Shown piece by piece: positions 3,279 to 36,664 of a stretch of 43,661 bases of DNA. The stretch is from a virus: positions 1 through 43,661 of IMG/VR virus record IMGVR_UViG_3300027852_000072, one strand, 5' to 3'. The translations under genes were made by a program, and so were the position numbers. The number at the start of each line of letters is the position of its first letter. Within the stretch, counting starts at the first letter, position 1. A model generated the notes under the pieces. That model had not been told where the DNA came from. It did not search any database and saw only the letters and a program-made list of their open reading frames with translations.

Positions 3279-3634
3279 TGCCTGTAAATGTCTCAGCTGC
3301 GATTTGCAAAGATACTGCAGAAAAGATAGTAGTTACACGGTTCTCTGCTGGCAGTTATGTAAATGGTATTTATCAAAAAGGTGGAACATCAGATTTTAAA
3401 ACTTTAGCAAGTGTGCAGCAACCGACGATGAAACAGCTGCAGCGATTACCAGAAGGTCTTCGCGATAAAGACATCATGCTATTTGTATCCAAAAAATCGT
3501 TAAGAGGAACAAGCGACAGAGATAACATATCTGCTGATATGGTAACTCACAAAAGTATCCAGTATGAAATCACCGACGAAGGTAACTGGTCATCATACGG
3601 ATACACCTCTGTTTTTGGCATAAGAATACCATGA
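3278..3634 (+). CDS. Probable head-closure (stopper) protein
   Basis: This 118-residue protein with a beta-rich pattern lies between a gp10-like neck protein and the tail terminator, where the stopper is normally found. Segments such as TLASVQQPTMKQLQRLPEG and the C-terminal YEITDEGNWSSYGYTSVFG resemble small head-completion proteins. The assignment rests mainly on position. Start and stop overlap the neighbouring genes. Confidence 0.5.
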   Translation: MPVNVSAAICKDTAEKIVVTRFSAGSYVNGIYQKGGTSDFKTLASVQQPTMKQLQRLPEGLRDKDIMLFVSKKSLRGTSDRDNISADMVTHKSIQYEITDEGNWSSYGYTSVFGIRIP

Positions 3635-5694: not shown

Positions 5695-6123
5695 ATGAAG
5701 GCATATAGTTTTTTAGACACATTACTTCTCATCAACGGATTTCCTATTTCAGGTTTTGGCGATGATGATACCACCATTGAAGTCAAACGGCTTGCGGATT
5801 CTGCCTCCCATAAAATGGGTACTGACGGTGAAATGACTCTATCTCTGAGTGCGAATCTTTCAGGTGAAATTATTTTTCGCTTGATGCAGACCTCTACCGA
5901 TAACGGTTTGCTATCCACTCTCATATCAAATCAGGAAAGTGGAACATTCGTTCCGATTTTTGCTGAGTTTAAAGATGTGCGAGGCGGAGATTTAGGTTCA
6001 GGTACCCTTGGATATATTCCAAGGCCTGCAGACCTTGGCCGCGGCGAAACAGCAAAATCGCAAGAGTGGCGAGTTGTTGTTGAACGATTAGACCTGTTAC
6101 ATCTAGGTGTAGAAAGTTTCTGA
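5695..6123 (+). CDS. Tail tube protein (DUF3277 family)
   Basis: This 142-residue protein has the segments LLINGFPISGFGDDDTTIEVKRLADSA, MTLSLSANLSGEIIFRLMQTS and the C-terminal EWRVVVERLDLLHLG. These match the DUF3277-type tube protein found after DUF3383 sheaths. It should stack as hexamer rings inside the sheath. The start has AGAGG upstream. A highly structured non-coding stretch follows. Confidence 0.85.
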   Translation: MKAYSFLDTLLLINGFPISGFGDDDTTIEVKRLADSASHKMGTDGEMTLSLSANLSGEIIFRLMQTSTDNGLLSTLISNQESGTFVPIFAEFKDVRGGDLGSGTLGYIPRPADLGRGETAKSQEWRVVVERLDLLHLGVESF

Positions 6124-6189
6124 GGGGATAAAGTCACTGTGGGGATTCCGGCCTATTCACAGTGACTCCCTCGGAATTCAATAGGCCGG
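6122..6189 (+). promoter_or_regulatory. Overlapping stems able to form a pseudoknot
   Basis: Stem A pairs 6132-6141 with 6158-6167 (10 bp) and is reinforced by GAGGG at 6122-6126 with CCCTC at 6168-6172 across a bulge. Stem B pairs 6148-6157 (CCGGCCTATT) with 6180-6189 (10 bp). The 5' arm of B lies in the loop of A, so A and B are either alternatives or form a pseudoknot. A third option pairs 6143-6150 with 6172-6179. The element sits between the tube and tail chaperone genes and ends 25 bases before the next ATG. It has no T-run, so it is not a plain terminator. Confidence 0.7.
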
Positions 6190-6214
6190 TATAATTTGGA
6201 CCGGGAGTTATAAA

Positions 6215-6688
6215 ATGGGTTGTAAAACAGAATCAAAACAAATTGGAGAACATGAATACAGTGTAACACAATGGCCCGCTGATAAAGCGATGGTAATGAA
6301 GTTCAAACTAATAAAAACTATAGGGCCTGCACTGTTTAAAATTGCCGGCGGATTCAGCCAAAAGAAAGATGCAGAAGGCAATGATATTGTCCCACCTGGT
6401 GGACATGAAGCGGATCCGTTTAATGTTGATATAAACACTGATTCTATATCAGAAGGATTATCTCAACTATTTAAAGAGAATGATCCTGAGGAACTCGCCG
6501 CTCTTTTTAAAAACTGTGTTGTTGGTGCTGGTTGTGACGGCACGATTATTACCGAGCAGAGTTTTAACATGCTATTCTCTGGTGATTCTCTTGTTGATGT
6601 CTATCGAGTGTTTCTTTTTGTCGTACAGGTTAATTTCTCAAATTTGTTAAAAGGCAAGTTGTTGACCAAAGTACTCGACAAGCTGTAA
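6215..6688 (+). CDS. Tail assembly chaperone, short form (G-like)
   Basis: This 157-residue product lies between tube and tape measure, the position of the G/GT pair of tail chaperones. Such proteins coat the tape measure during tail assembly and are usually absent from the virion. The start has GGGAG about 7 bases upstream. Near its end lies the slippery heptamer A AAT TTG (6640-6646), after which a -1 frame stays open to 6888 and gives the longer form. The family was inferred from position, size and frameshift signal. Confidence 0.75.
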   Translation: MGCKTESKQIGEHEYSVTQWPADKAMVMKFKLIKTIGPALFKIAGGFSQKKDAEGNDIVPPGGHEADPFNVDINTDSISEGLSQLFKENDPEELAALFKNCVVGAGCDGTIITEQSFNMLFSGDSLVDVYRVFLFVVQVNFSNLLKGKLLTKVLDKL

Positions 6689-6888
6689 GTCCAGATAGTG
6701 CATCAGAGGTAGATGTTTCTAAGTATCCAAATGTTAATGCGGAGTTGCATCGTCCCCTTTTAATAGATCCACCAATGTGCACTCTCCGTGAATTGCAAGA
6801 CGGAACATACTCAATAGATGATCTGATGATGATGAATGAACTTATAGATCTAAAATTAGAAGCTAAAAAAGCAGGTGCACCGTCGTGA
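6215..6888 (+). CDS. Tail assembly chaperone, long form by -1 frameshift (GT-like)
   Basis: The zero frame is read to the heptamer A AAT TTG at 6640-6646, which fits the X XXY YYZ rule exactly. After a -1 slip the ribosome continues from 6646 with VKRQVVDQSTRQAVSPDS and ends with a helical segment (CTLRELQDGTYSIDDLMMMNELIDL, then KLEAKKAGAPS) before TGA at 6886-6888. The -1 frame has no start codon of its own in a sensible place and no good ribosome site, while its codons look coding. The T-like extension would be about 80 residues. The tape measure start overlaps its stop as GTGA. Confidence 0.8.
6640..6646 (+). promoter_or_regulatory. -1 ribosomal frameshift slippery site AAATTTG
   Basis: In the chaperone frame the codons are AAT TTG preceded by A, so both tRNAs can re-pair as AAA TTT after a -1 slip. 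The -1 frame is open only from 6634 and the zero frame stops at 6686, so this is the only canonical heptamer in the usable window. Confidence 0.75.
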
Positions 6889-14772: not shown

Positions 14773-15224
14773 TGGCACTTGATCCTTTAACCGCAGCATT
14801 CGAAGCCGGTAAATATGCGATAGAACGGATTTGGCCGGATCCAGAAAAACAAGCGATAGAAATCCGCCATCTAGAAAAACTGCGACAAGACGGTGAACTA
14901 GTTCGTATGAAGATACGGGCTAATTTGCTTATTAAGCAGATGGATACCAACAAGCAGGAAGCATCTCATAAAAGTGTGTTTGTCGCTGGATACAGACCAT
15001 TTATTGGATGGGTTTGCGGATTTGGTTTGCTGTATGTTTCTACACTAGAACCAATTCTACGGTTCATAGCATTATTGTGTGGTTATACAGGAAAATTTCC
15101 TGTTATTGATACATCCTTAACGATGCAGATTTTAATGGGAATGTTGGGTATCGCAGGCATGAGAAGTTATGATAAGAAGAATAAGACACAAACAGACAAG
15201 ATTATACCGTCGGAGTCTAATTAG
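14772..15224 (+). CDS. Holin, 3-TM GTA-release type
   Basis: This 150-residue protein has an N-terminal amphipathic charged half (PDPEKQAIEIRHLEKLRQDGELVRMKI), then hydrophobic segments at about residues 80-92, 95-115 and 118-135. This layout matches the 'holin of 3TMs, for gene-transfer release' family. A conserved-looking YRPFIGWVCGFGLLY motif supports it. It lies right after the endolysin and is the last rightward gene before the large hairpin. Confidence 0.8.
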   Translation: MALDPLTAAFEAGKYAIERIWPDPEKQAIEIRHLEKLRQDGELVRMKIRANLLIKQMDTNKQEASHKSVFVAGYRPFIGWVCGFGLLYVSTLEPILRFIALLCGYTGKFPVIDTSLTMQILMGMLGIAGMRSYDKKNKTQTDKIIPSESN

Positions 15225-15310
15225 GGTTCACCCTATTATGATTCTAAGGGGCCAGTATGTGTGTTCACACGGGCCTATGTCTAGAATCATAATAGGGTTA
15301 ATCCTAATTA
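15218..15310. terminator. Long bidirectional hairpin between convergent operons
   Basis: Arms 15218-15246 and 15282-15310 pair over 29 positions with one mismatch and one G-U. The loop holds a second short stem (GTGTG-TT-CACAC). The structure lies exactly where the rightward late genes meet the leftward nucleotide genes and overlaps both 3' ends. It probably stops transcription from both sides and protects the mRNA 3' ends. Confidence 0.85.
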
Positions 15311-15780
15311 GTCCAAATCAGTTGGTTATCGGTGTTAATCACCAATGTTGGAACAACCTGTTCCCACTCTCTCCCAGAATTAAGCCATATCTCTTTGACT
15401 CGCTCATGCGGGTATTCTTCAGCAAAAACTACACGTTGGCATGATGTGTTCAGAAGAAGTTTTATGCAATGGATACATGGTGACGCGGTAGTATAAGCGG
15501 TTTTTATTTCATACACTTTTCCGCATTGTAACAGAGCATTCTGTTCCGCATGAACAGCTTCGCATTTATCTAGATCTTCTCCAGACTTAGCATTACTTCC
15601 ACCACATGGTGAGTTGATGCAATGTGGTTGACCTGATGCGGGACCATTTCGTCCAGTGGATAAAAGATGATCGCGGTTGTTGACCAATACACACCCAACC
15701 TGTCGACGGGAGCATGTTCCCTTGCTTGAAGCTAAAACTGCCATGTTGATATAATACTCATCTGCTTCTTTAGGAGTCAT
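15304..15780 (-). CDS. dCMP deaminase
   Basis: This 158-residue protein of the cytidine/deoxycytidylate deaminase family has the zinc site HAEQNAL (H77, catalytic E79) and SPCIHC (C102, C105). The N-terminal segment CSRRQVGCVLVNN and the NGPASGQPHC loop are also typical of dCMP deaminase. It converts dCMP to dUMP, feeding dTMP synthesis. It is the last gene of the operon; its ATG overlaps the stop of the thymidylate-synthase-like gene (ATGA). Having this next to a dCMP-modifying enzyme repeats the T4 arrangement. Confidence 0.9.
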   Translation of the reverse strand: MTPKEADEYYINMAVLASSKGTCSRRQVGCVLVNNRDHLLSTGRNGPASGQPHCINSPCGGSNAKSGEDLDKCEAVHAEQNALLQCGKVYEIKTAYTTASPCIHCIKLLLNTSCQRVVFAEEYPHERVKEIWLNSGREWEQVVPTLVINTDNQLIWTN

Positions 15781-27690: not shown

Positions 27691-28257
<567 letters not shown>

Positions 28258-36135: not shown

Positions 36136-36664
36136 AAGAAGGTGTCCAGTATGTATGTATGAGATTAGATACTAAAGCACTTTTAATGAATAGTACACAC
36201 TTAAATTAATATAATACGGTTATTTAAGCCTAAGTTATTGAAATCCTTAGTGAAAGAAGCCAGATATTTGTGCCTGAGTTAATTAACTGTAGGCCTAGTT
36301 ACTATGTAAGCCATTGATATTATTAACTTTATAAGACACTATACTTCTAATACTATATACTTCTATAAAATAAATAAAAAATAAAGATATAGTATATTAA
36401 CTATATATAATATACTAATATTAGAAATATATAATATGAGAAATAAGAATATATATAATAGTCCGTCGGCAGTTGAGTTAATAGAGTTTCAGCATTTCAT
36501 TGTTCTTATAAATCAACAAGTTAGCATTAACTAAACTCACTGTTAATTGCTCAACTATTTCTGCCATAATTAAATTTGGACTGTTTTAATGCTCTTTAGT
36601 GTCCTTCTTTAATCCTATGCACTATAATCTAACCTCATACTTAAACATACATCGAGGATTAATA
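36136..36664. promoter_or_regulatory. AT-rich divergent intergenic region
   Basis: This is about 530 bp with no coding frame, extremely AT-rich at about 36340-36470. It separates the leftward early genes from the rightward genes. It contains the leftward promoter for 36135, a TTAAGCCTAAGTT motif at 36222-36234, a 9-bp inverted repeat (36391-36399 with 36408-36416), and a rightward TATAAT at 36623-36628 with no good -35. It could also hold a second origin or a binding region. Confidence 0.6.

Follow-up and report, generated by a model that had tools for sequence, protein, structure and literature searches.

A predicted pseudoknot between the tail tube and tail assembly chaperone genes of uncultured myoviruses as a candidate switch for chaperone translation

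The gap between the tail tube and tail assembly chaperone genes of an uncultured myovirus carries a predicted RNA element that recurs in related viruses and probably sets the amount of chaperone made. We assign a probability of about 0.5 to the reading that this element is a conserved cis-acting RNA in the tail-gene messenger, which would control initiation of chaperone translation as a two-state switch. Comparison of related sequences makes it near certain that the mRNA folds into the helices P1 and P2 with the P3 pseudoknot, and that the Shine-Dalgarno (SD) sequence sits in a hairpin of its own. The hairpin loop is complementary to two sites, the P3 3′ arm and the SD motif, but would be unable to pair with both together, from which we infer the two states.

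The window, which is the whole stretch of 43,661 nucleotides that was analysed, carries a myovirus late operon in which ORF calls and PHROG matches give the order sheath, tube, chaperone and tape measure (Table 1). A homologue of the tube protein is annotated as tail tube in Pectobacterium phage PP101, and a comparison of the window with annotated phages returned no match at the DNA level. A startless frame at 6634-6887, shifted by -1 from the chaperone frame, whose end it overlaps, matches PHROG 4364 (E 1.2e-11) and is a probable extension of the chaperone by frameshift. Elsewhere in the window, an inverted repeat of 30 nt with 93% complementarity lies between convergent ORFs (15217-15311) and is likely a bidirectional terminator, overlapping A+T-rich inverted repeats are clustered at 36300-36560 within a region (31.0-37.1 kb) that holds no ORF of at least 150 aa, and an ORF on the minus strand (27691-28257) encodes a very long aspartate run.

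Table 1. Coordinates in the window of the predicted RNA element and its flanking genes
Feature	Positions	Strand	Remarks
Tail tube gene (142 aa), upstream	5695-6123	+	PHROG 280 virion structural protein, E 5.7e-30; TGA stop 6121-6123 inside P1
P1 5′ arm (outer stem)	6118-6126	+	Pairs with 6168-6176; 309/309 cells paired in relatives
Asymmetric 5′ bulge GATAA	6127-6131	+	5-7 nt in 24/29 members, variable sequence
P2 5′ arm (stem A of the sequence-only reading)	6132-6141	+	Pairs with 6158-6167
Loop segment TTCCGGCCTATT	6146-6157	+	P3 5′ arm 6148-6157; alternative SD partner 6146-6151
P2 3′ arm	6158-6167	+	Partner of 6132-6141
P1 3′ arm	6168-6176	+	Partner of 6118-6126
P3 3′ arm AATAGGCCGG, pseudoknot (stem B of the sequence-only reading)	6180-6189	+	0/20000 swaps better; 0/500 column shuffles
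SD hairpin	6191-6211	+	6191-6197 with 6205-6211; loop GGACCGG 6198-6204; SD GGGAG 6203-6207
SD motif CCGGGA, P4 partner of loop 6146-6151	6201-6206	+	Core pairs in 92/92 cells, 23 sequences
Tail assembly chaperone gene (157 aa), downstream	6215-6688	+	PHROG 1613 tail assembly chaperone, E 4.3e-17

A sequence-only reading of this DNA had proposed two interlocking 10-bp stems, A and B, as a pseudoknot or a switch between folds. Both stems are perfect and interlock as it described, an arrangement of two perfect 10-bp stems that occurs nowhere else in the 43.7-kb window. At a stem length of 8 bp, the window holds only one other such place, which is weaker, and dinucleotide-shuffled windows hold a mean of 0.6 interlocked 8-bp pairs when overlapping registers are counted. 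The folding energy of positions 6110-6217, with the knot left out, has a z of -3.3. Stem A extends outward across the 5-nt bulge as helix P1, which takes in the tube stop codon; this outer helix had been overlooked, as had the SD hairpin and the pairing of the loop with the SD motif. The arrangement is that of an H-type pseudoknot, in which a hairpin loop pairs with sequence on its 3′ side, and covariation is found for P1/P2 as well as for P3.

Relatives were gathered by protein searches of viral contigs, using tube and chaperone queries and alignments. The same layout was found at about 29 distinct loci plus near copies, all from uncultured viruses (myoviruses) and always in the tube-chaperone gap, with tube proteins that are 49-69% identical to that of the window where compared. 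It consists of a long P1 just after the tube stop, a 5′ bulge of about 5 nt, P2, and a loop that pairs downstream as P3. For comparative tests, 24 and later 29 sequences were split by hand into arms and loops, and the divisions were checked by script against the locus sequences. Because division by hand is biased towards structure, we applied swap tests, in which pairing within each sequence is compared with pairing between swapped sequences, and repeated these in a nonredundant set thinned to less than 80% tube identity. Column shuffles leave the relatedness of the sequences in place, and swaps and thinning control it in part.

All three helices are supported by compensatory change. P1 is paired in 248/248 cells of the first set and in every cell of the second (Table 1), with two-sided changes at 11/11 pairs, P2 is paired in 90% of cells with two-sided changes at 6/6 pairs, and P3 is paired in 92% of cells with two-sided changes at five of its seven pairs, the remaining two being invariant. 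The combined covariation score of P1, P2 and P3 is 0.748 against 0.243 for shuffled columns, a value that 0/500 shuffles reached, and the same holds for the P3 score taken alone. Each loop pairs better with its own P3 arm (-14.8 kcal/mol) than with a swapped one (-12.2 kcal/mol), in the nonredundant set as in the full set (each 0/20000 permutations), and the SD hairpin likewise passes the swap test (P < 5e-5). Homologues without compensatory changes would have spoken against the proposed pseudoknot; since such changes are present throughout, the proposal holds. The strand on which wobble pairs occur is also informative. Read on the mRNA strand, P1 contains 15 G-U pairs, whereas A-C combinations, which correspond to G-U on the opposite strand, do not occur; this indicates that it is the sense RNA that is constrained. 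A chance origin, or a DNA-level element such as a protein-binding palindrome or a recombination site, would account for the inverted repeats as such, but is contradicted by this strand asymmetry and by the compensatory changes, and we find it scarcely credible.

Two further regularities are seen in P1. Purines fill about 93% of cells in the 5′ arm of its inner seven pairs (27 members; 6118-6126 in the window), a bias that could either be functional or be a by-product of the paths between G-C, G-U and A-U pairs. Many members also have an SD-like GGAGG directly after the tube stop, with an anti-SD-like CCUCC in the P1 3′ arm. At one locus (L029, 3001-3291), the tube frame is interrupted early (96 aa) and the downstream element is intact; the interruption is either an assembly error or a real frameshift.

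The element appears to be confined to this gap. A covariance model (R1), which was built from the base pairs of the P1/P2 hairpin only and excluded those of P3, recovered the held-out L007, the L064 group, L087, L090 and L038 at E <= 6e-5, and all of these matches also carry P3 and the SD motif. R1 found one significant copy per genome record searched, always in the tube-chaperone gap, and no significant second copy in the same genomes, where extra matches had E >= 0.09 and mostly fell on the opposite strand of the same site. A pattern scan of all viral contigs for other gene contexts returned known members and GC-rich sequence that reads as chance only. The single match from a genome collection, which is one of the loci counted above, was a contig inside a Patescibacteria MAG, which may reflect misbinning. 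Absence of the element is also found among relatives. Seven of them (including L016, L020 and L022) have a short gap without it, and its presence requires four changes on the tube tree. It is likewise absent from cultured MW202455 and from five cultured phages (three of them Chaseviridae), in which the gaps are short, apart from a longer gap in Spp001 that has no match to the model. Among members, L013 has the pseudoknot and is missing the SD motif, and in L033 P3 is broken. L004 carries, in the same gap (3418-3514), a bulged hairpin followed by TCTTTTTATT, with no knot, as a terminator-like alternative.

The apical loop of several members encodes a mini-ORF, AUG-AUY-CCG-GYC-stop (MIPA/MIPV), which was seen in L009, L010, L012, L014, L015, L018, L021, L026, L035 and L057, and in a version with a GUG start in L023. 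A leader peptide was therefore considered and rejected as the shared function of the element, since the mini-ORF start codon occurs in only about ten members and is missing from most, the window included. A programmed frameshift pseudoknot was also rejected, as every member that was read has its tube stop codon at or before P1.

Transcription termination offers another possible role for a stable hairpin between phage late genes, and L004 has a terminator-like hairpin in the same gap. The sequence-only reading had stated that this is no standard terminator, and the relatives agree with it: a U-run after the stem is absent from the window and from most members, with L004 and L029 as exceptions, so we rejected an intrinsic terminator, from which the element also differs by its conserved pseudoknot and SD hairpin. 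A weaker version of this idea is an attenuator, in which the hairpin would be a partial terminator that lowers chaperone mRNA and P3 would act on the terminator fold. The L004 hairpin and its downstream run at the same site would fit such a role, as would six T after P1 in L029, but the longest T-run within 10 nt after P1 is at most 3 in 22/29 members (2 in the window), the window site received no terminator call, and a terminator would not normally have so large an apical loop. We regard an attenuator as very improbable.

The comparison of relatives also reveals another site with which the loop could pair. This is the SD motif, typically GACCGGAG, which is similar in sequence to the P3 3′ arm; the loop (CCGGCC) is complementary to each of them. 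All four core loop-SD pairs are present in each of the 23 motif-bearing sequences, though in most members the conserved CCGG palindrome makes these pairs nearly automatic. More telling are joint G-C to A-U changes in the loop, the P3 arm and the SD motif of three phages. L017 has CCAG in the loop, matched by CTGG in the P3 arm and again in the SD motif. L023 and L037 have CCGA in the loop, with TCGG at each of the two partner sites, and the joint changes of these two phages may be one shared event. In addition, wobble changes in the P3 arm of L009, L021, L026 and L034 leave the SD unchanged, which argues against plain duplication of one motif. In swap tests, loops pair better with their own SD motif (-11.5 against -10.3, P = 5e-5; P = 0.002 in the nonredundant set). 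Because P rises to 0.07 when L017, L023 and L037 are removed, and because the column-shuffle result is weaker than that of P3, we consider the predicted loop-SD pairing supported, not proven.

These data bear on the switch between folds that the sequence-only reading had proposed. That part of its proposal has gained support, but its competing partner, a third stem formed by 6143-6150 and 6172-6179, has not. This stem has 8 pairs (one of them G-U) in the window and is not kept in relatives (own versus swapped, P = 0.12); the competitor suggested by the comparison is instead the SD motif. Of the roles that had been put forward for the element, translational control now appears the best supported on comparative grounds.

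A pseudoknot beside a translation start may also be a protein operator, in which the tube protein, the chaperone or a ribosomal protein would bind the knot and repress or permit chaperone translation, with the repeats of the P3 arm and the SD as two protein sites. The CCGG-centred motifs common to the P3 arm and the SD would suit this, there is a phage precedent in T4 gene 32 (PMC3014915), and pseudoknot operators of ribosomal proteins are well known (PMC10931766). However, the changes track complementarity to the loop, the P3-arm wobbles named above are absent from the SD, and no candidate protein was found. We therefore judge a protein operator distinctly unlikely.

The spacing of the element ties it to both neighbouring genes. 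In nearly all members, P1 starts 1-7 nt past the tube stop; the chaperone start, for its part, follows the SD core at a distance of 7-12 nt, so the element is fixed to both. P1 and P2 together have a median length of 18 bp, the linker from P1 to P3 (L3) spans 3-17 nt (median 6), and the distance from P1 to the SD is 17-35 nt (about 26). Given a stem of about 18 bp and so short a linker, the zipped hairpin should strain P3 more than it strains the loop-SD pairing, unless the conserved bulge lets the helix bend. We infer that P3 alongside a zipped P1 and P2 would require either that the helix bends there or that P1 opens. P3 is stronger than the loop-SD pairing in 24/29 members (L018 is one in which the loop-SD pairing is the stronger) and is transcribed first, so the default state should be that with an open SD, and the closed, loop-SD state may be rare.

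The anchoring of P1 just past the tube stop, the long stem with its asymmetric bulge, and the knotless bulged hairpin of L004 at the same place could also point to mRNA stability or processing. Here, P1, the bulge, P2 and the knot would mark or protect the 3′ end of the sheath-tube message, either as an RNase III-type site or by stopping 3′ exonucleases; tube would thereby exceed chaperone, and the SD pairing would be secondary. A role in RNA stability, which the sequence-only reading had raised as an RNase-resistant block, is possible. As a full explanation it is unlikely, since it accounts neither for the compensated P3 and SD hairpin nor for loop and SD motif having changed jointly.

For the translational switch that we prefer, the geometry suggests a working mechanism. 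In the open state, P3 would be formed and the SD released, and in the closed state, P3 would be broken and the SD captured by the loop. The state would be set by translation of the tube gene: as a ribosome terminates at the end of this gene, it would unpair the base of P1, which would relieve strain in the linker and favour P3, allowing the chaperone to be translated. Gating by ribosomes that terminate on tube would couple chaperone output to tube translation. Alternatively, a phage protein that binds the knot might play the part of the ribosome. The complete version, a ribosome-gated switch between two pseudoknots in which the loop chooses a decoy arm or the SD of the next gene and RNA alone sets the tube to chaperone ratio, is a tentative proposal that lies on the unlikely side.

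We place the element among the cis-acting translational-control pseudoknots, a known kind, as a new family with an unusual design. None of the Rfam 15 families matched the window or the loci holding eight relatives at the gathering threshold, and relaxed thresholds gave chance-level matches only. No described RNA at the tube-chaperone gap was found in the literature searched, which is a part of the whole. The repZ pseudoknot of plasmid ColIb-P9 and that of T4 gene 32 may be taken as analogues, not relatives. In ColIb-P9 (IncI-alpha/IncB repZ/repA), as Asano and Mizobuchi reportedly described in 1998, the loop of a hairpin binds a distant segment close to the downstream SD, and translation of an upstream frame gates the switch; their paper is cited by title in PMC10724649. 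The knot itself is said to activate repZ, with a leader peptide as the gate and an antisense RNA that binds the loop. In the present element, the upstream frame is instead the tube gene and the loop has two alternative partners.

In T4, T2 and RB69, gp32 binds an mRNA pseudoknot and spreads over the A+U-rich ribosome-binding site of gene 32 (PMC3014915). The likeness lies in an H-type pseudoknot in phage mRNA upstream of the gene whose translation the knot controls. However, the knot and SD of gene 32 share no pairing partner, the gene is different and there is no sequence similarity. The downstream gene here is a tail assembly chaperone (PHROG 1613) and not a single-stranded DNA-binding protein, and the present knot sits right after a stop codon, between two structural genes. 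Pseudoknots in ribosomal-protein mRNAs (S15 rpsO, the S4 alpha operon and L20 rpmI) lie over or upstream of translation starts and control initiation (PMC10931766). These also place a pseudoknot near a translation start, but belong to cellular operons with a ribosomal protein as ligand; the present element matches no Rfam family. None of these three systems has the sequence, gene context or two-partner loop of the element.

The predicted element stands between two structural genes whose products are required in very different amounts, with tube far more abundant. Its loop with two partners, one of them an SD, is an unusual design that was revealed by comparing relatives. A family this rich in covariation makes the question of how tail-protein ratios may be fixed within one transcript a testable one.
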